A DNA stretch of 10,893 nt, taken from Nitrospinae bacterium RIFCSPLOWO2_12_FULL_45_22. GTDB lineage: Bacteria > 2-12-FULL-45-22. The notes under the pieces were generated by a model. That model saw only the letters and a list, made by a program, of their open reading frames with translations, had not been told where the DNA came from and made no database searches. Below are positions 64-10,893 of the stretch, piece by piece. The stretch lies in assembly GCA_001803565.1 (NCBI GenBank), contig MHDQ01000317.1:1-10893 (forward strand), given 5' to 3'. The translations under genes and the position numbers were made by a program. Each line of letters starts with the position of its first letter. Position 1 is the first letter of the stretch.

Positions 64-522
64 ATGGAAAATCTTAATTCAATACTGGCAAAATATGGCT
101 GGGGAAAAATGGCCCTTATCCCTATTCTCCAGGACCTTCAAGAAGAGTATGGCTGGCTCTCTGAAGAGTTATTAGATGAAGTGGCGCAGAGATTGCGGGT
201 TTCTTCTTCGGAGATATTCAGCATGGTAACATTTTATAAATCTTTCAGACTGAAGCCCGTGGGCAAGTACCTCATAACTGTTTGTCTGGGCACTGCCTGT
301 CATGTAAGGGGGGCGCCCGACGTACTGGATGAAATTAAGAGAAGGAGCGGGATAAAAGATGGCGAGACTACTAAGGATAATCTCTTCACTCTGGAAACGG
401 TAAACTGTGTTGGGGCATGTGCCCTTGGCCCCATTGTTATAGTTAATGATGAATATCACGGCTTGATGAGCAAAGTCAAGGTAGAAAAGCTAATTGACCA
501 GCTTTATGAAAAGAATCAATAA
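64..522 (+). CDS. nuoE: NuoE/HydC-like thioredoxin-fold [2Fe-2S] subunit
   Basis: A 152-residue protein of the NuoE / HydC / HoxE family (24-kDa subunit type), a cytoplasmic partner of NuoF that carries one [2Fe-2S] cluster beside the FMN site. The first 75 residues match the helical N-terminal part of the family (for example ALIPILQDLQEEYG and VTFYKSFRLKPVGKY). The C-terminal thioredoxin-like part has the four ligand cysteines as CLGTAC and, about 35 residues later, CVGAC followed by ALGP. Length is normal for the family. The ATG at 64 is the only sensible start, since the frame is closed at 34-36, but it has no visible Shine-Dalgarno sequence. Its 3' end overlaps the nuoF-like gene, indicating translational coupling. 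It could equally be named hydC or hndA; no hydrogenase catalytic subunit is present in the window to favour those names. Confidence 0.93.
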   Translation: MENLNSILAKYGWGKMALIPILQDLQEEYGWLSEELLDEVAQRLRVSSSEIFSMVTFYKSFRLKPVGKYLITVCLGTACHVRGAPDVLDEIKRRSGIKDGETTKDNLFTLETVNCVGACALGPIVIVNDEYHGLMSKVKVEKLIDQLYEKNQ

Positions 523-2407
523 TGAGCAAGATTTAAATAATCTAAGGGAAGAAATCAAAAAAAGGCTCCAGGGCAAGGCTATAACCATTGCTGTTTGCAA
601 TGGTACGGGTTGCCAGGCATACGGATGCGATAAGGTTACCAGGGCATTTATTGACGAGATCACAAAACAGGAGCTGGATTTAGAGATCAAGCCAACGGGT
701 TGCCACGGCTTCTGTCAATCGGGTCCCATTACCGTTATACAGCCAGAAGGCATCTTCTATCAGAGGATAAAACCTGAGGATGTAGGGGAGATTGTTTCAG
801 AAACTATTGTGAAAAATCGTATCATAGAACGGCTCCTATATGAAGACCCTATGACCCATGAAAAAATTATCCACGAGAAAGAGGTGCCATTTTATAGGAA
901 ACAGATGCGTCTAATCTTCGGGAATAATGGCTTCATTAATCCCAGGAGCATAGAGGACTATATTGCCATTGGTGGATATTCAGGTGTGTCTAAAGTATTA
1001 AAAGAGATGGAGCCGGAAGAGGTAATAGAGGAGATAAAGGACTCTGGCTTGAGGGGGAGGGGTGGCGCGGGTTTTCTTACCGGGGTAAAATGGGAGATTT
1101 GCCACAAAGCAGAAGGGACTCCCAAATACCTTATATGCAACTGTGATGAGGGAGACCCAGGGGCATATATGGATCGTAGCCTGTTGGAAGGGAATCCCCA
1201 CTCTGTGATAGAGGGGATGCTCATTGGGGCTTATGCTATTGGGGCACAAAAGGGATTCATCTATGTCCGCCATGAGTATCCTCTGGCGGTGAAAAATGCC
1301 TCTTATGCCATTTCACAAGCCAGAGAATATGGGTTATTAGGAGAGAATATACTTGGCTCTTCTTTTAGTTTTGACCTCGAGATTACCAGGGGTGCAGGGG
1401 CTTTTGTCAGTGGCGAGGAGACGGCCCTGATGGCATCTATTGAAGGGAGAAAAGGTGAACCCTGGCCCAGACCGCCATATCCTGCCCAGAAGGGGCTGTG
1501 GGGTAGGCCCACAAATATAAACAATGTAGAGACCTGGGCAAATGTACCGTTCATTATCAATAGGGGCGCTAAATATTACTCGGCTATAGGGACAGACGGG
1601 AGTAAGGGTACCAAGATATTTTCCCTCGTGGGAAAGATAAACAACACCGGGCTTGTGGAAGTACCTATGGGCATTACCCTGAGGGAGCTTGTTTACGAGA
1701 TAGGGGGTGGCATACCAAAGGGTAAGGCATTTAAGGCAATCCAGACCGGCGGACCTTCCGGGGGGTGCATCCCTAAAGAGCTGCTGGATTTGCCGGTGGA
1801 TTATGAGAGTCTCACTAAGGCAGGGTCTATGATGGGGTCCGGTGGGATGATTGTAATGGATGAGGATACCTGTATGGTAGACTTAGCCCATTATTTTCTG
1901 AATTTTACCCAGGGAGAATCCTGTGGAAAGTGCGTTCCCTGCCGCATTGGTACCAGGCATATCCTTGCGATCTTAGAGAAGATAAAAAGAGGAGGAGGAG
2001 AAAGCGGAGATATCCCCAAATTGGAAAGGCTGAGCGAGACAGTGAAGAAGGCGTCGCTATGTGGATTAGGCCAAACGGCCCCAAATCCTGTTTTGACTAC
2101 CCTCAGGTACTTTCGCCATGAATACGAGGCCCATATCAAGGAGAAGAAATGCCCTGCCCTTGCGTGCAAGGATTTGATCTCCTATTTCATTATCCCGGAA
2201 AAATGTGTGGGGTGCATGCTCTGCCTCAAAAATTGTCCGGCGGGGGCGGTAAGTGGGGAGCTAAAAAAGCTCCATATCATTGATGACCATATTTGTATAC
2301 GCTGTGGAGTCTGTCTTGAGGTATGCCCGGATAAGGTAAATGCCGTGGTAAAAGTATCACCCAAAAAACAAGCAACCTATCAAGCCACCAAGGCACCAAG
2401 TCACTAA
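506..2407 (+). CDS. nuoF: NuoF/HydB-like NADH-binding FMN and Fe-S subunit with extra ferredoxin domains
   Basis: The NADH-oxidising flavoprotein subunit, of the long HydB/HndC type rather than the short respiratory NuoF. Counting from the ATG at 506 (633 aa): residues about 25-100 are a thioredoxin-like [2Fe-2S] domain with C31, C36, C66 and C70; the FMN/NADH core follows with GRGGAGF at 184-190, CNCDEGDPGA and SGEETALMASIEG; an SLBB region follows; then a [4Fe-4S] site at C473, C476, C479 and C519; and a C-terminal two-cluster ferredoxin with C567, C570, C573, C577 and C597, C600, C603, C607. All core ligands are intact. A TTG at 494 would add four residues; the ATG at 506 is preferred, although neither has a clear Shine-Dalgarno sequence. 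The last dozen codons run into the palindromic repeat at 2384-2492, so the C-terminal tail is probably repeat-derived. It presumably transfers electrons between NADH and the NuoG-like subunit. Confidence 0.94.
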   Translation: MKRINNEQDLNNLREEIKKRLQGKAITIAVCNGTGCQAYGCDKVTRAFIDEITKQELDLEIKPTGCHGFCQSGPITVIQPEGIFYQRIKPEDVGEIVSETIVKNRIIERLLYEDPMTHEKIIHEKEVPFYRKQMRLIFGNNGFINPRSIEDYIAIGGYSGVSKVLKEMEPEEVIEEIKDSGLRGRGGAGFLTGVKWEICHKAEGTPKYLICNCDEGDPGAYMDRSLLEGNPHSVIEGMLIGAYAIGAQKGFIYVRHEYPLAVKNASYAISQAREYGLLGENILGSSFSFDLEITRGAGAFVSGEETALMASIEGRKGEPWPRPPYPAQKGLWGRPTNINNVETWANVPFIINRGAKYYSAIGTDGSKGTKIFSLVGKINNTGLVEVPMGITLRELVYEIGGGIPKGKAFKAIQTGGPSGGCIPKELLDLPVDYESLTKAGSMMGSGGMIVMDEDTCMVDLAHYFLNFTQGESCGKCVPCRIGTRHILAILEKIKRGGGESGDIPKLERLSETVKKASLCGLGQTAPNPVLTTLRYFRHEYEAHIKEKKCPALACKDLISYFIIPEKCVGCMLCLKNCPAGAVSGELKKLHIIDDHICIRCGVCLEVCPDKVNAVVKVSPKKQATYQATKAPSH

Positions 2408-2492
2408 GTATCACCAAGTGATATGGGTAGGGTTATATCACATACTATATCGTATAGACTTTATGGCTTTGGTGTCTTCGTGCCTTCGTGGC
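2384..2492. repeat. Imperfect inverted repeat with 8-bp periodicity between nuoF and nuoG
   Basis: A 26-base left arm (2384-2409) and a 26-base right arm (2467-2492) are inverted copies matching at 21 of 26 positions. Each arm is built from 8-base units of the type CACCAAGG / CACCAAGT on the left and the complementary TCTTCGTG / CCTTCGTG on the right, with a further CACCAAGT unit at 2412-2419. The interior holds smaller hairpins: GTGATAT at 2418-2424 pairs with ATATCAC at 2435-2441, and CTATA pairs with TATAG around 2444-2456. The nuoF stop codon (2405-2407) lies inside the left arm. From memory, repeats of this style are dispersed in the genomes of many uncultured anaerobes; copy number here cannot be judged from one copy. 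It looks like a non-autonomous insertion rather than a simple terminator. Confidence 0.75.
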
Positions 2493-2507
2493 AGATACGG
2501 AATAAGG

Positions 2508-5033
2508 ATGATAGAGTTAACTATTGATGGACAAAGGGTCAAGGTGGCGGAGGGGAGCACGGTTCTCGAGGCATCAAGAAAAGCCAATATTTACCTGCCT
2601 ACCCTCTGCTACCATCCCTCTTTGACCCCCTGGGGTGGGTGTAGGTTATGTGTAGTGGAGATAGAGGGGATGAAGGGCTATCCCACTGCCTGTACAACAC
2701 CCGTCACTAATGGGATGAAGGTTAATACCCGGACAGAAGAGGTGCAAGAGTTGAGGAGACAGGTCTTAGAGCTCATCCTCTCTGAACATCCCTGTGTGTG
2801 TTTGATATGTGAGAGGGGAGAAGAGTGTGAGAAGTACCAGGACTGTATCAGGAAGAGTTCTCTTGTTACGGGGTGTAAATTCTGCCCCAAAGATAAAAGA
2901 TGTGAGCTTCAGGATATGTGTAAGTATTTGGGCCTTCGAGAAATATCTTTCCCCACCCGTTACCGGGGGTTGCCGGTTGAGCGCAATGATCCATTCTATG
3001 ATAGGGATTATAACCTATGTATTCTCTGTGGTAGATGCGTGAGAGTATGTAATGAAGTAAGGGGGGACCATGTTCTCTCTACTATCTATCGGGGGAGTGA
3101 GTCTATGGTTTCACCGGCATTCCATCGCTCCCATATGGAATCTTACTGTGAGTTCTGCGGTGCCTGTGTAGATATATGCCCTACAGGTGCCCTTTCAGAA
3201 AGGGCGAGGAAATGGGAGGGTGTAGCTGATGACTTAAAGGCTACTATTTGTCCCCTATGCAGTATAGGGTGTCAGATAAATCTGGAAATAAAGGGAGAAA
3301 GGGTAATAGGGGTTATACCGGACCCCCTGGGCGATATAAATAAGGGTCAAGCCTGTGTGAAGGGTAAATTTGCGCCCGGTATTATTATTTCCCATAAAGA
3401 TAGGATACAGGTGCCGTTTATCAGGAAAAGCGGGAAGCTCAAGGAAGTGAAATGGGATGAGGCCATTGATTTTGTAGCAAATGAATTAAGACGGTACAAA
3501 GGACGAAAGTTTGCCCTTGTCTCATCCCCCTATTGTACTGATGAGGAGCATTATATATTCCAGAAATTTACGGAAAGAGCAATGGATTCCTTCAGCTTCT
3601 CCCCCATGGGGGTTCATCAGGATATACGGTACCTGGGCAATAAAATCCCGAGAAGGGGCTCTATTACCGATATTCCCGCTTCTAAGTCGCTCCTTATATG
3701 CGCAGATGTAACTACTTCCCATCCGGTCCTGGGGGTGTGGATAAAAAAGGCCATGGATAAAGGGGCAAAGGTAGTGCTTATCCATCCCAAAAAAGTGCCC
3801 CTTTCCCGTTGGGCAGATGTCTTTATCCAGACTCATCCCTCAACCGAGTTTTTCATTTTACTCCATATAATGAAGTCCATATTAGATGATGAAAATCTAA
3901 TCCCCCCTAATCTCCCTTTAACAAAGGCGGGAAAGGGGGCTTTGAAAAGGAGATTTTCCGAAGAAAATCAAGGGGAGCTTGCTAAAATTAAAGGTTCTTT
4001 AAAAGGTTCTTTAAAGGGATTAGACTTTAACTCGCTAGGGTTCGATCCTGATGCCTTAGAAGAGGCTGCCCGCTCCCTTGTCCTGGGAAGACCAACGGCC
4101 ATTTTATATAGCGATGCCTTATTCCAGCAACCCAGGGGGGAAGAAGTCCTCTATGCTATAAACAACCTCTCTCTTCTCCTGGGCTCGGAGGTGGTATTAC
4201 CCCTCTTTGCTGAAGGGAATGTTGCGGGCTGCCTCTTTAACAGCAACAAGGGTGAGAAAGGGTTCTTGTCTTATACCCAGATCATGGAGGGGATTCAGGG
4301 GGGAGAGATCGAGGCCCTTTACAGTATTGGCGGTATTACCGGGCACGACAGACCTCCCCTGAAATTTCTCATCCTCCAGGACCCTTATTATTCCGAGCAG
4401 ATGGACTTTGCGGATGCAGTGTTACCAGCGTGCACCTTTACAGAAAAGGATGGTACCTTGACGAATCTTGAAGGGAAAGCTCAGAGGATAAATAGGGCCA
4501 TTGAACCTCTAGGCAGAGCAAAACCTGATTGGTGGATAATTTGCGAGATAGCAAAGAGGCTTGGGGCAAGGGGTTTTGCATTCAATAGCATAGAAGAGAT
4601 CCAGGAGGAGATGGCGCTTTCGAGTATTCACCAGGATCAGGGAGAGAGGAAATTTATAAACATTAATACTGAACCACTATGCTATAAGATAGGAAATCCC
4701 CCGGATTATCCCCTCACACTGATGATAGAATCTGATTCCTATCACTATCGCTCTTTTTCTCTTCGCCACAGGATTAAGGGATACAGAGTATTAAGGGACC
4801 CAGGGGTTATAGAAATGAACCCCCAGGATATGATGTCCAGAGATATTACTGACGGAGAAGAGGTAGATGTGATTTCCCCGCATGGCAGAATCAAGGCAAG
4901 GGCCATGGCCACCGAAAAAATCAAGGCTGGCACAACCTCCATGGTCTTTCATCTTTCTCATAATTCGCCGGTCTTACTAGTGCGGCCTTATGAGCAGAAG
5001 CTCTGCGCAGTGAGGGTTGAGAAACATGTATAA
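2508..5033 (+). CDS. nuoG: NuoG/FdhA-like multi-cluster Fe-S subunit with non-catalytic molybdopterin-type domain
   Basis: An 841-residue electron-wire subunit. In order: a [2Fe-2S] ferredoxin domain (C34, C45, C48, C62); the His/Cys cluster site H94-C98-C101-C107; a second, similarly spaced cysteine set at C123-C126-C132-C138; two [4Fe-4S] sites (C171, C174, C177, C181 and C214, C217, C220, C224); then a molybdopterin-oxidoreductase-like region with its own [4Fe-4S] site (C248, C251, C255, C283). Where formate dehydrogenases carry the catalytic Cys/Sec motif this protein reads SFSFSPMGVHQD (361-372), so it is probably not a formate dehydrogenase. The ATG at 2508 is chosen because family homology begins at MIELTIDG and AAGG lies just before it; an open GTG start at 2418 would add 30 residues translated from repeat DNA. 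Residues about 465-480 come from an inserted palindromic repeat. The 3' end overlaps the NfnA-like gene by 8 bases. Confidence 0.9.
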   Translation: MIELTIDGQRVKVAEGSTVLEASRKANIYLPTLCYHPSLTPWGGCRLCVVEIEGMKGYPTACTTPVTNGMKVNTRTEEVQELRRQVLELILSEHPCVCLICERGEECEKYQDCIRKSSLVTGCKFCPKDKRCELQDMCKYLGLREISFPTRYRGLPVERNDPFYDRDYNLCILCGRCVRVCNEVRGDHVLSTIYRGSESMVSPAFHRSHMESYCEFCGACVDICPTGALSERARKWEGVADDLKATICPLCSIGCQINLEIKGERVIGVIPDPLGDINKGQACVKGKFAPGIIISHKDRIQVPFIRKSGKLKEVKWDEAIDFVANELRRYKGRKFALVSSPYCTDEEHYIFQKFTERAMDSFSFSPMGVHQDIRYLGNKIPRRGSITDIPASKSLLICADVTTSHPVLGVWIKKAMDKGAKVVLIHPKKVPLSRWADVFIQTHPSTEFFILLHIMKSILDDENLIPPNLPLTKAGKGALKRRFSEENQGELAKIKGSLKGSLKGLDFNSLGFDPDALEEAARSLVLGRPTAILYSDALFQQPRGEEVLYAINNLSLLLGSEVVLPLFAEGNVAGCLFNSNKGEKGFLSYTQIMEGIQGGEIEALYSIGGITGHDRPPLKFLILQDPYYSEQMDFADAVLPACTFTEKDGTLTNLEGKAQRINRAIEPLGRAKPDWWIICEIAKRLGARGFAFNSIEEIQEEMALSSIHQDQGERKFININTEPLCYKIGNPPDYPLTLMIESDSYHYRSFSLRHRIKGYRVLRDPGVIEMNPQDMMSRDITDGEEVDVISPHGRIKARAMATEKIKAGTTSMVFHLSHNSPVLLVRPYEQKLCAVRVEKHV
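3902..3940. repeat. Palindromic repeat inserted in frame inside the nuoG-like gene
   Basis: Two 18-base arms (3902-3919 and 3923-3940) with a 3-base loop form an imperfect hairpin matching at 12 of 18 positions, C-rich on the left and G-rich on the right (CCCCCCTAATCTCCCTTT against the complement of AAAGGCGGGAAAGGGGGC). The composition stands out from the surrounding coding sequence. It is read through in frame as IPPNLPLTKAGKG, a low-complexity Pro/Gly/Lys stretch at residues 465-477, in a linker of the molybdopterin-type region. From memory, C-run/G-run hairpins of this kind are common dispersed repeats in environmental bacterial genomes. That it is an insertion is inferred from composition and from the atypical protein sequence. 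Confidence 0.6.
3990..4013 (+). repeat. Exact 12-bp tandem duplication in nuoG coding for KGSL-KGSL
   Basis: AAAGGTTCTTTA occurs twice, head to tail and exactly in codon register, giving KGSLKGSL at residues 495-502; a third degenerate unit (KGL) follows. It lies about 50 bases after the palindromic insertion in the same linker, so this part of the protein tolerates length change. The likely origin is replication slippage. Confidence 0.85.
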
Positions 5034-5856
5034 GGTGCTCTGCCGGGAAATGGTGGTTCCTAATATCCATATAATGAAGATCCATGCGCCGCATGTAGCT
5101 AGAAGCTCCAGGCCAGGCCAGTTTGTTATCCTCATGCCTGACGAAAGAGGGGAGAGGGTACCATTAAATATCGCCGACTGGGACAAGGAAGAAGGGAGTA
5201 TTACGGTGGTCTTTATGGAGGTAGGAACTTCTACCCGAAAATTAGCCTATACTAATCCTAATGGTTATATACCGACATGCGTGGGTCCATTGGGAATCCC
5301 CTCCTCAATAGATAGATTCGGGAGCGTTGTTTGCGCCGGTGGGTGTTATGGTATCGGGGCGCTGTTTCCCGTCGCGAGGGCCTTAAGAGAAGCAGGAAAT
5401 AGGGTGATCGCTATCCTTGAGGCAAAGAGCAGTTATCTATTATACTGGGAAAATAGGTTTAAATCCGTATGCGATGAATTGATCCTTACTACAGAGGATG
5501 CCACCCTGGGTGAGAAAGGCCATGCCCCCAGGATACTGGAGAAAATATTGAAGGAGTATGAGGTGGATAGGGTCTTTGCCTACGGCTGCACCTTCATGAT
5601 GATGTCATGCTCTGAGGCGACCAGACCCTTTGGGGTAAAGACCAGGGTAAGTTTAAACCCTATTATGGTAGATGGGACAGGGATGTGTGGGGTGTGCCGG
5701 GTCCCGGTAGGTGGGAAGGTACGCTTTGCCTGTGTTGATGGCCCAGAATTTGATGGCCATGAGGTGGATTGGGAAGTGCTCCTGTCCCGTAGACACTCAT
5801 ATATAGAGGAAGAAGTCCATTCCCTCAAGTGTTACGAAACAGATCAGTTCTCTTAA
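5026..5856 (+). CDS. nfnA: NfnA/SudB-like FAD and [2Fe-2S] subunit of ferredoxin:NAD(P) oxidoreductase
   Basis: A 276-residue protein of the dihydroorotate-dehydrogenase-electron-transfer / ferredoxin-NADP reductase superfamily, closest in pattern to NfnA and sulfide dehydrogenase subunit B. The N-terminal FAD barrel shows PGQFVIL (30-36) and ERVPLNIAD (43-51); the nucleotide-binding half has GGCYGIGALFPVARAL (105-120); the C-terminal [2Fe-2S] site is VDGTGMCGVCR with C221, C224 and C236. In NfnA of known structure one ligand of this cluster is an aspartate; D216 is the candidate here. The ATG at 5026 overlaps the nuoG stop by 8 bases; an upstream TTG at 5017 is open but the family begins at MYKVLCREM. 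Its normal partner, NfnB, is the next gene. Sulfide dehydrogenase (SudB) is the alternative name. Confidence 0.9.
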   Translation: MYKVLCREMVVPNIHIMKIHAPHVARSSRPGQFVILMPDERGERVPLNIADWDKEEGSITVVFMEVGTSTRKLAYTNPNGYIPTCVGPLGIPSSIDRFGSVVCAGGCYGIGALFPVARALREAGNRVIAILEAKSSYLLYWENRFKSVCDELILTTEDATLGEKGHAPRILEKILKEYEVDRVFAYGCTFMMMSCSEATRPFGVKTRVSLNPIMVDGTGMCGVCRVPVGGKVRFACVDGPEFDGHEVDWEVLLSRRHSYIEEEVHSLKCYETDQFS

Positions 5857-5924
5857 AAAGGGTAACTATAATTCTAATGGCAACCGTGATGTGGAGACTG
5901 GATAGCTACAAAAAGGGGTAGGCT

Positions 5925-7319
5925 ATGGCAATAGATATGGATAGGGCAGAAATGCCAAAGCAACCTCCTGAAGACAGGATACATAACTTCAGCGAGGTAG
6001 CCCTGGGTTATAATATAGAGCTGGCTATTAAAGAGGCCCGGAGGTGTCTCCAGTGCAGTGAGCCCTTCTGTGTTGCCGGTTGCCCGGTAGAGATTGATAT
6101 TCCAGGATTTATCAAGGCCATTGCAGAAGAGGATTTCAGGCGAAGTATTAAGATACTGAAAGATAAAACCATCCTCCCGGCCATATGCGGCAGGGTATGT
6201 CCCCAGGAAGACCAGTGTGAGAAGTCCTGTATACTCAGTAAGAAGAAGGCCCCTATCGCTATTGGGAGGCTGGAACGGTTTGCGGCAGACCAGGAAGCCC
6301 TGGAAGGAACCTGGGCCCTTCCATCTATAGCAGACCCTACCGGTAAAAAAGTAGCCGTGGTAGGTTCTGGCCCTGCAGGGCTTACGATTGCAGGGGACTT
6401 GATAAAAAAAGGCCATAAAATAACTATTTTTGAGGCCCTGCATGAGCCCGGTGGGGTACTGGCATACGGTATTCCCGAGTTCAGGCTGCCCAAGGCCATA
6501 GTGAGGAGAGAGGTAGAATTCTTAAAAAACCTTGGAGTGGGGTTGATCTTTGATTTTGTTGTCGGAAGAACCCTGACGATAGATGAACTCCTGGAGGAGT
6601 TCCAGGCTGTATTCCTCGGCACCGGGGCAGGGCTGCCCTGGTTTATGGAGATACCTGGTGAAAATGCTAATGGCATATATTCCGCCAATGAGTACCTCAC
6701 CAGGTCAAACCTCATGAAGGCCTATATATTCCCTGAATACGATACTCCTATTAAGAGAGGAAAGAGGGTGGTCGTTATAGGGGGCGGCAATGTGGCAATG
6801 GACTCTGCCAGGACGGCTTTGAGGCTTGGCGCGGAAGAAGTGAGGATAATATATAGGAGGTCCCGTACCGAAATGCCTGCCAGACAGGAAGAGATAGAGA
6901 ATGCAGAAGAGGAAGGGATCATCTTTGAATTTCTCACCCTCCCGGTGAGATTTATCCCGGATGATTCGGGATGGGTAAGAGAGATGGAATGCCTCAGGAT
7001 GCAATTAGGAGAACCCGATGCCTCAGGGCGAAGGAGGCCGGTGCCAGTTAAGGGCTCAGAATTCCGAACACCAGTAGATATCGTTGTAGTAGCCATTGGC
7101 CAGAGCCCAAATCCCCTCATACCTTCTACTACTTCGGGTATTGAGGTTGGGAAATGGGGGAATATTGTTGTGGAGCCGGCTACAGGTAGGACGAGCAAAA
7201 GGGGTGTATTTGCCGGTGGTGATGTGGTCAGAGGGGGTGCAACGGTAATACTGGCTATGGGTGATGCCAGGGTGGCCGCAAGGGCCATTGATGAATATTT
7301 AAAATCCAATAACGGGTAA
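5925..7319 (+). CDS. nfnB: NfnB/SudA/GltD-like NADPH and FAD, Fe-S oxidoreductase subunit
   Basis: A 464-residue flavoprotein of the glutamate-synthase small subunit family. The N-terminal Fe-S domain has C41, C44, C49, C53 and C88, C92, C98, C102. The FAD site is GSGPAGL (147-153) followed by E170 and PGGVLAYGIPEFRLPK. The NADPH domain is IGGGNVAMDSART (285-297) with the NADP-type arginines in YRRSRTEMPA (310-319). A second FAD-contact motif, FAGGDVVRGGATVILAMGDA, lies at 429-448. Length and domain order fit NfnB and SudA. In Nfn complexes this subunit holds the bifurcating FAD. The pairing with an NfnA-like gene, and the absence of a glutamate synthase large subunit, favour NfnB over GltD. 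AGGGGTAGGCT just before the ATG supplies a plausible ribosome binding site; the 68-base gap to the NfnA-like gene holds nothing recognisable. Confidence 0.92.
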   Translation: MAIDMDRAEMPKQPPEDRIHNFSEVALGYNIELAIKEARRCLQCSEPFCVAGCPVEIDIPGFIKAIAEEDFRRSIKILKDKTILPAICGRVCPQEDQCEKSCILSKKKAPIAIGRLERFAADQEALEGTWALPSIADPTGKKVAVVGSGPAGLTIAGDLIKKGHKITIFEALHEPGGVLAYGIPEFRLPKAIVRREVEFLKNLGVGLIFDFVVGRTLTIDELLEEFQAVFLGTGAGLPWFMEIPGENANGIYSANEYLTRSNLMKAYIFPEYDTPIKRGKRVVVIGGGNVAMDSARTALRLGAEEVRIIYRRSRTEMPARQEEIENAEEEGIIFEFLTLPVRFIPDDSGWVREMECLRMQLGEPDASGRRRPVPVKGSEFRTPVDIVVVAIGQSPNPLIPSTTSGIEVGKWGNIVVEPATGRTSKRGVFAGGDVVRGGATVILAMGDARVAARAIDEYLKSNNG

Positions 7320-7320
7320 G

Positions 7321-7327
7321 AAGGAGG
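7321..7327 (+). promoter_or_regulatory. Strong Shine-Dalgarno sequence for the ferredoxin-like gene
   Basis: AAGGAGG lies 5 bases before the ATG at 7333. It is the clearest ribosome binding site in the operon, and suggests that the small terminal subunit is translated at least as well as its partners. Confidence 0.85.
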
Positions 7328-7332
7328 AAGTT

Positions 7333-7608
7333 ATGAAATGGAACTATGGTTATACTGATGGACGGGGAGAGTTTTATTTAACGGTTGATACAGACAAATG
7401 TACTGGGTGTGGGGATTGTGTGGAGGCATGCCCTCAAGGGATTCTAGAGGTTGCCCTGAACGATTTTGACCAGGAGGTAGTCCAGGTAAAAGAAACACTG
7501 CGTAAGCAATTGAGCTATAAATGCCTGGGTTACTATGCCGTCTGCAGCAAACAGGAAAAGAATTGCCATAGCGTTTGCCCTACAGACGTAATAACCCATA
7601 CCTGGTAA
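7333..7608 (+). CDS. Small two-cluster ferredoxin-like protein
   Basis: A 91-residue protein. The first site is a standard [4Fe-4S] ferredoxin motif, CTGCGDCVEACPQG (C23, C26, C29, C33). The second set is unusually spaced: C64, then C71, C78 and C82 followed by Pro (C-x6-C-x6-C-x3-CP), with PTDVITHTW closing the protein. The CxxxCP ending suggests a second [4Fe-4S] site whose loops have grown, but this is inferred. It starts 13 bases after the NfnB-like gene, so it is almost certainly co-transcribed. It may be the ferredoxin partner or a dedicated small subunit of the complex. I do not recognise a named family for it. No hairpin terminator is visible in the 60 bases after its stop. Confidence 0.85.
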   Translation: MKWNYGYTDGRGEFYLTVDTDKCTGCGDCVEACPQGILEVALNDFDQEVVQVKETLRKQLSYKCLGYYAVCSKQEKNCHSVCPTDVITHTW

Positions 7609-8628: not shown

Positions 8629-9214
8629 GGATCTAAAGGACTCTTTATGCTTATCCCCGGCTGATTTAACACATGGGTGTAAACCATGGTAGTTGAGACA
8701 TCGCTATGGCCCAGCAGCTCCTGCACTGTCCTTATGTCGTAATTTGCCTCCAGTAGATGAGTGGCGGAATAAGCTTTACCATCAATTGATAATCACCCGA
8801 CATAGCACCAATTACTCTCATGGTCTCCTCTTTGGTCATCACTGTCGGTAAACGCTTTGGCTTTTTGGCCCTGATGGCATCAATGGAACCATCCAGGTCC
8901 TTTTGGAGAACCTCCTTATAGAGGAACAATAAGGCATTGAAGGCCTGGTTTTGAGTTGCGGCTAATACTTTCATATCCACAGCCAAATAGGAAAGAAATG
9001 CCTCGATCTCCTTATTTCCCATATCTTCTGGAGGCCGTTCATTATGGAAAAGGAGGTATCTCTTGATCCAACCCAGATAACTTTTTTCTGTCCGTATGGA
9101 GTAATGCTTTAACCGGATAAGATCTCTGGCCCGCTCGAAAAGCCCATCGTTCCTCTTGTCAGTCCAGGTATTTTGCCCACCCAGCTCTTCTCTCTTTGTC
9201 TCTGTAGTAAACGA
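8625..9214 (-). pseudogene. Integron-integrase-like tyrosine recombinase with the middle deleted
   Basis: Reading down from 9214, the minus strand gives the N-terminal core-binding domain: ARDLIRLKHYSIRTEKSYLG, then WIKRYLLFHNERPPEDMG, then EAFLSYLAVDMKVLAATQNQ, then KPKRLPTVMTKEE, as far as LMVKLI near 8772. The next bases, in another frame, give [20 protein letters not shown], then [15 protein letters not shown], ending KSPLDP and TGA at 8625. That is the end of the catalytic domain with its Tyr nucleophile (VYTHV). Roughly 120-150 residues, including both catalytic arginines, are missing at a junction about 8763-8775, so it cannot be active. The 5' end also lacks a start codon (in-frame TAA at 9215-9217); the first ATG in frame, at 9022, lies well inside the domain. 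It resembles the IntI/XerC-like solo integrases; no attC site was recognised. Confidence 0.82.
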
Positions 9215-9846: not shown

Positions 9847-9970
9847 AGGATCATATTAACTCTCTTCATCCTTACTATCAACCGAAAATAAGCAGAGTGT
9901 GGTTATGAGGTAGGGTTAGCGTTGGCTTCTGGATTAAGGGAGAAAAGGAGGATAGGAACCTTTAGGCGGT

Positions 9971-10167
9971 TCAATTGATTATAAAATGGACATGTTATGT
10001 TGAGCTCAACATAAGACATGGTTATTCATTAGGCAGTATAACCAGATCTTTAAATTATATTTCTGGCTATATTCTTTTAGCCATGACTCATATTGAATAA
10101 AGTCCACTTCTTCCTTGAAGATGGTTTGCTTGTAGTTACCTCTTTGAATTACGTGATACGGATACCT
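9971..10167 (-). pseudogene. Y1 (HUH, IS200-like/RAYT) transposase N-terminal remnant
   Basis: The minus strand reads RYPYHVIQRGNYKQTIFKEE, then FIQYESWLKEYSQKYNLK, then IWLYCLMNNHV, the N-terminal third of the transposase_17 family (YHVxxRGN ... LMxNHVHF). The frame then breaks at a palindromic insertion (9989-10020). Removing 26 bases restores NNHVHFII, the HUH metal-binding motif, before a TGA at 9971. The catalytic tyrosine region is absent, so the gene is dead. Upstream it abuts a methylase 3' fragment, and an in-frame TAA lies just before the first codon listed. Positions 9847-9970 beyond it, the leader of the 208-aa gene, show nothing recognisable. Confidence 0.85.
9989..10020. repeat. 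20-bp perfect palindrome flanked by a 6-bp direct repeat (insertion scar)
   Basis: TTATGTTGAGCTCAACATAA (9995-10014) is perfectly self-complementary and is bounded on both sides by the same direct repeat, GACATG (9989-9994 and 10015-10020). It interrupts the HUH codons of the transposase remnant, and removing palindrome plus one GACATG restores the reading frame and the expected NHVHF motif. This is the structure of an insertion with a 6-bp target duplication. The palindrome equals two abutting 10-bp inverted ends (TTATGTTGAG), as would be left if an element lost its interior. Confidence 0.85.
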
Positions 10168-10258
10168 TTACATCTGCCTGCTTTTGCGGATTTTGCAGGT
10201 AATCTTCGTCTTTGGTGATGGCAAGGATGCGGTCAACGATGGGGATGAAAGCGTCGGC
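10166..10258 (-). pseudogene. 3'-end remnant of an Eco57I/TaqI-type DNA methylase
   Basis: The minus strand gives DAFIPIVDRILAITKDEDYL then QNPQKQADVK, matching the conserved C-terminal region of large N6-adenine methylases and type IIG restriction-modification proteins. The match stops at about 10166, where transposase sequence begins, so the final 30 or so residues are missing. It starts directly after the stop of the DUF2283 gene, with nothing of the rest of the methylase. The part KDEDYL-x-NP-x-KQA-x-VK is shared with the second copy at the end of the window. Confidence 0.7.
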
Positions 10259-10260
10259 AG

Positions 10261-10757: not shown

Positions 10758-10893
10758 TCACCCCTTTCCCTCCACAATCCGTATCTCCTCCTCCGTCAAA
10801 CTGTAGAGCTGGTACACCATCTGGTCAATCTCCCGCTCCAGCGCCTTCACCTGCGCCTGCTTGGCAGGGTTCTCTAAATAATCCTCGTCTTTG
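10758..10893 (-). CDS. C-terminal end of an Eco57I/TaqI-type DNA methylase (partial, runs off the window)
   Basis: The last 44 residues, KDEDYLENPAKQAQVKALER then EIDQMVYQLYSLTEEEIRIV and EGKG, end at the TGA at 10758-10760. This is the characteristic C-terminus of large N6-adenine methylase / type IIG restriction-modification proteins (I-D-x-x-V-Y-x-L-Y-x-L-T-x-E-E-I-x-I-V-E). The gene continues beyond position 10893, so nothing can be said about its catalytic motifs or whether it is intact. A damaged relative of the same region lies at 10166-10258, on the other side of the DUF4258-like/DUF2283 pair. Confidence 0.75.
   Translation of the reverse strand, partial: KDEDYLENPAKQAQVKALEREIDQMVYQLYSLTEEEIRIVEGKG

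Follow-up and report, generated by a model that had tools for sequence, protein, structure and literature searches.

A 20-bp palindrome within a REP-associated transposase gene, a probable footprint of a RIT element

On the plus strand of the window, i.e. the whole stretch of 10,893 nt of Nitrospinae contig MHDQ01000317.1 analysed here, an operon (64–7608) encodes NuoE/F/G-like subunits, a molybdopterin oxidoreductase, an FeS/FAD subunit and a glutamate-synthase-like pyridine nucleotide oxidoreductase; it looks like that of an electron-bifurcating NAD-linked enzyme. On the minus strand (8640–9190), a decayed integron/Xer-type tyrosine recombinase retains a SAM-like domain at its N-terminus (PF13495, 49.9 bits) and, in another frame, a C-terminal piece; the middle is missing. 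The same strand then contains the gene of a REP-associated transposase (RAYT), the subject of this analysis. Its reading frame proceeds as ...KIWLYCLMNNHV and is interrupted there, the upstream part ending in YCLMNNHV. This 51-residue N-half passes the Pfam Y1_Tnp profile with 26.2 bits against a cut-off of 23, and the nearest intact homologues found (60–65% identity) read YCLMxNHVH without a break. Deletion of 26 bp rejoins NNHV with HFII. In L176, a homologue with 46% identity, the DNA AATCATGTCCATTTTATAG has the letters of the window flanks rejoined over a single CATGTC. The transposase is truncated on both sides: its start is missing and the fragment begins inside another gene fragment, while no transposase reading follows HFIIN*, which leaves a C-half of six codons. 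Because the gene is a fragment at both ends (no start, and a stop after HFII), it was either already dead at the time of insertion or has decayed further since. A KDEDYLxNPxKQAxVK stretch occurs twice on the minus strand (10165–10260 and 10780–10893), and the transposase N-half begins close to the end of the first copy, which suggests an older junction.

The interrupting DNA is read directly at 9989–10020 as GACATG, TTATGTTGAGCTCAACATAA and GACATG (Table 1). On the transposase strand, CATGTC thus stands on both sides of the palindrome as a 6-bp direct duplication, oriented as in the single RIT (Recombinase In Trio) insertions described below. The sequence-only reading had proposed an insertion with a 6-bp target duplication in the HUH motif of a transposase gene, and this holds: GACATG lies on both sides, removal of 26 bp restores NNHV-HFII and intact homologues are unbroken. 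By our arithmetic, a perfect 20-bp palindrome anywhere in 10.9 kb has a chance of ∼0.01, falling to ∼2.5e-6 when a flanking 6-bp direct repeat is added. In its own genome, TTATGTTGAGCTCAACATAA is a single copy even with two mismatches allowed; the flank 9860–9988 is likewise unique there and not part of a repeat. A role of the palindrome as REP substrate of the flanking Y1 transposase was rejected on account of this single copy and of its position interrupting the gene; elsewhere, the palindrome also interrupts unrelated genes. A long element with TTATGTTGAG ends in the same genome was rejected too, single-mismatch 11-mers numbering 68 versus 32 in a reversed control (about 2-fold), with no second exact copy. 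The integron-type integrase fragment at 8.6–9.2 kb was discarded as a source since it has no link to the palindrome.

Table 1. Features at the interrupted transposase gene (window coordinates)
Feature	Position	Strand	Basis
N-half fragment of REP-associated transposase (Y1_Tnp, IS200-like), RYPYHVIQRGN...YCLMNNHV	10015..10167	-	Pfam Y1_Tnp, 26.2 bits; intact homologues
N-half-side copy of the 6-bp core / target, CATGTC on minus	10015..10020	-	Direct repeat of 9989–9994; placed like the host core of RIT insertions
Palindromic end module of RIT element, TTATGTTGAGCTCAACATAA	9995..10014	.	Two inverted 10-bp recombinase-type boxes without spacer; exact match at at least 124 further sites, 66 standing 6 bp from RIT terminal boxes
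C-half-side copy of the 6-bp core / target, CATGTC	9989..9994	-	Counterpart of the far-end core in complete single RIT insertions
C-half remnant of transposase, (HV)HFII	9977..9994	-	Same letters as intact L176 CATGTCCATTTTATA; homology stops here

By chance, the exact 20-mer is expected ∼0.2 times in 257 Gb of genomes. A scan of this volume gave at least 117 stretches with exact TTATGTTGAGCTCAACATAA among the matches listed, and viral contigs gave 3 more. In total, 125 palindrome sites including the window were examined, i.e. at least 124 besides it, in many phyla. In 66 of the 125, one flank consists of 6 bp, a TTATGTGAAG-like box, 7 bp and a second TTATGTGAAG-like box, an arrangement that only 14 of 200,000 simulated random flanks present. 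These boxes are the terminal inverted repeats of elements of 3.1–3.6 kb with three adjacent XerC/D-type tyrosine recombinases, as seen in L083, where ritA, ritB and ritC are all intact, and in L075, where the middle gene hits an early stop and the third is without its N-terminal part. RIT elements have been described as three overlapping recombinase genes (about 3.5 kb) with a 28–29 bp inverted repeat and an overlapping palindrome, their mobility being unproven (PMC3414803); RitA, RitB and RitC subgroups are recognized (PMC8138268). The elements bearing the palindrome belong to this family. Trio elements of the same plan with diverged 20-mers occur on plasmids, namely pSHV1 of Sphingobium herbicidovorans (TTATGGAAAGGTATGCATAA), cited in the literature as RIT, and a plasmid of Paraburkholderia fungorum (TTATCCTCTGCAGAGCATAA).

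Complete elements with the palindrome at one end only were found at 11 loci, and all 11 have the order host1-T6-palindrome-N6-TIR...ritABC...TIR-T6-host2. The T6 duplication is exact in seven (ACGCTA, GTGGGG, AAAGAA, TTTGCG, TACTGG, ATCATA and AAAGCT), the span between the palindrome and the far end measures 3.1–3.6 kb with one exception of 5.2 kb, and in most of the 11 the host flanks rejoin in frame across a single T6. The whole 20-bp palindrome is therefore one end of the RIT, with 6 bp between it and the real terminal inverted repeat. This corrects the description of the insert as ‘two abutting 10-bp inverted ends’, and the ends, for which no element had been known to the sequence-only reading, are those of RIT elements. 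The search of the palindrome's own genome and of others, which that reading had named as a check, thus gave one copy at home and the RIT terminal boxes beside 66 of the copies elsewhere. Three elements have palindromes at both ends (L052, 2170–5654; L075, 128–3324; L083, 2635–5782); in these, each flank pair consists of the same half of a target gene, two different target genes being fused in inverted orientation, implying rearrangement between insertion sites.

In-frame rejoined targets include IstB (AVILD|ELGYLPFSQ), DUF6908 (FYW|RNDYLGIEQW) and DUF932 (FVC|DNLCFG) as well as three named from motifs, i.e. an IS1380-like transposase (ENRIKE|QKLDL), an IS66 accessory-like frame (MYDGQGFWL) and a serine-recombinase-like frame (HPDRLARN). 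Pfam profiles add flanks from an IS66 transposase cut at LLHADE, IstB, Phage_integrase, Amidoligase_2 and MULE. The codons hit are those of the RAYT HUH, the IstB Walker B, the IS66 D, the IS1380-like E, the serine recombinase and the tyrosine recombinase. The target rule that emerges for RITs is conserved codons of catalytic motifs in genes that belong to other mobile elements. Among the matches listed, recognizable RAYT flanks of RIT-borne palindromes are N-halves cut at NH(V/F/Y/I). The window palindrome sits at this very target, in RAYT HUH codons and facing the N-half. In four other genomes, a lone palindrome lies between a RAYT N-half and C-half at the same codons as in the window: L076 (NHY|HIHLIV), L077 (NHF|HYHILI), L097 (NHV|HTHLLVY) and L227 (NHY|HWHILLW, with one arm varied). 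The cores agree at 2 to 4 of 6 positions in these four; among these RAYT genes, they are exact in the window alone.

The most probable explanation, to which we give about 75%, is that a RIT entered the HUH motif of the transposase and that, after later excision or deletion of its body, the 26-bp insert remained as its footprint. Four points are observed: the palindrome is identical with that of RIT ends, RIT insertions follow a 6-bp duplication rule, they have a target motif, and lone palindromes lie in other RAYT genes as well. The window layout, host(N-half)-CATGTC-palindrome-CATGTC-host(C-half), equals a single RIT insertion minus N6, TIRs and ritABC. A full RIT would once have occupied the site, having arrived as a circle with the order box-core-palindrome-core-box; recombination would have taken place between one 6-bp edge of its palindrome and CATGTC in the HUH codons. 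The N-half would thereby have come to border the palindrome, and the C-half the far terminal repeat, with a copy of CATGTC at each junction. The body, about 3.1–3.5 kb with the inner core, both terminal repeats and ritABC, would then have been lost, either by action of the Rit recombinases between the inner core of the palindrome and the far core, releasing the body, or by slippage between ACATAA in the right arm of the palindrome and ACATAA in the far terminal box. Either route would leave N-half-CATGTC-palindrome-CATGTC-C-half, the same end product, which does not tell them apart. Against this reading, the transposase C-half has only six codons, neither RIT genes nor terminal inverted repeats tied to the palindrome are present at the site, and the own genome (a MAG 85% complete) has no second palindrome and no RIT terminal-repeat pair, so that the missing body is inferred. 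A RIT elsewhere in this genome was also rejected on the latter ground, its weak RitC matches (27–46% identical) being perhaps ordinary Xer-type recombinases. One genome of the same order, when searched, had no palindrome match; of 191 other genomes, a single one carries the palindrome, and there at another place. The earlier idea of a scar left by a larger element is thus the best reading, with the amendment that one end module was kept and not both ends; the alternative idea of an extremely small palindromic mobile sequence is less likely.

This alternative would have the palindrome moving alone: Rit recombinases acting in trans would insert it, flanked by two 6-bp cores, into CATGTC, and no RIT body would be involved. 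In its favour, 56 of the sites examined have a lone palindrome, nearly the number with a RIT-borne one (66), and the own genome is without RIT terminal repeats. The flanking 6-mers are perfectly inverted in 28 of the 56 lone palindromes, against 1.7 expected from re-pairing, often because the two flanks come from the same half of a target gene. Recombination evidently takes place at either edge of the palindrome, since many lone copies join two like halves in inverted orientation. Such copies, the commonest lone type, are not explained by simple excision and count against the footprint reading; they need recombination at both palindrome edges, and the module is therefore more active than a passive scar. 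However, movement of the palindrome alone requires a 20-bp donor molecule, body loss from an ordinary RIT insertion also explains the window anatomy, and no genome was found with many lone direct-repeat copies. On balance, we consider it unlikely that this is how the window insert arose, and equally unlikely that the palindrome with two 6-bp cores is a minimal mobile unit, moved or swapped by Rit recombinases in trans at either edge; if it were, few known mobile DNAs would be as small, and it would generate inverted fusions of gene halves. Less probable still is a palindrome that served as a pre-existing docking site for RITs, placed by an unrelated REP-like family of small repeats. Many lone copies do lie within longer palindromes such as TTCAGACTTCTTG-palindrome-CAAGAAGTCTGAA, repeated in one genome, but complete single insertions have one palindrome on one side only, and their host gene is intact when read across a single core copy, which argues that the palindrome came with the RIT. 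Finally, fold-back copying can make short palindromes and GACATG(G)TTAT happens to be common to both flanks, but creation of the palindrome beside the 6-bp duplication by random local mutation (template switching or duplication) is refuted by the recurrence of the same 20 letters, tied to RIT ends, at at least 124 other sites in many phyla, and by the four other RAYT genes that have it at the same codons (one with single-arm variation).

The footprint reading also bears comparison with known systems. Near-precise excision of Tn10 and Tn5 leaves a short palindromic remnant and a target duplication within a gene. The window resembles such scars in both respects; it differs in that a RIT is not a DDE transposon and that the remnant is one end module, not two joined ends. 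For Tn554, the strand-biased circularizing integrative elements (SE) and GInts, we know of no 20-bp palindrome module. These share with RITs several tyrosine recombinases, a 6-bp core travelling with the element and site-specific targets, but have a further conserved gene (srap, ginD or TnpC) and are not the elements found here (PMC10214605, PMC5385486). Published RITs have terminal inverted repeats of 28–29 bp or 34 bp and insertions in IS66 tnpA, a Tn6049-like transposase and radC (PMC3414803; CH34 genome, PMC2864759), from which the window differs by having the 20-bp palindrome and 6-bp duplication only, without recombinase genes and terminal repeats. Van Houdt et al. (2012) noted that RIT ends ‘do not fit well’ with usual recombinase sites (PMC3414803). 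RIT elements are widespread, and the recurrent palindrome gives their ends an explicit anatomy, with one palindrome module, three 6-bp cores and a 6-bp target duplication. With this anatomy and the target rule, direct tests of how circles form, how cores are chosen and how footprints arise become possible, and the 20-bp palindrome becomes a marker of past RIT activity where no RIT remains. The window feature itself is an ordinary relic of a known, little-studied element family; the greater interest lies in what the comparison shows of RIT ends and targets.

Hybrid palindromes were dismissed as proof of slippage, since the one copy of hybrid appearance, TTATGTGGAGCTCAACATAA in the RAYT gene of L227, could also come from a single point mutation. 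In L231 and L232 (at 301), the variant TTATGTGGAGCTCCACATAA has matching changes in both arms; the palindromic form is kept while its letters drift. Hairpins of the TTCAGACTTCTTG-palindrome-CAAGAAGTCTGAA type enclose both lone and RIT-borne copies (L058, L059, L071, L072, L082, L104, L116, L125 and L127), most or all from one Victivallales MAG. Similar longer hairpins are present in L040, L080, L110, L108 and L142, with a like outer arm in several phyla.
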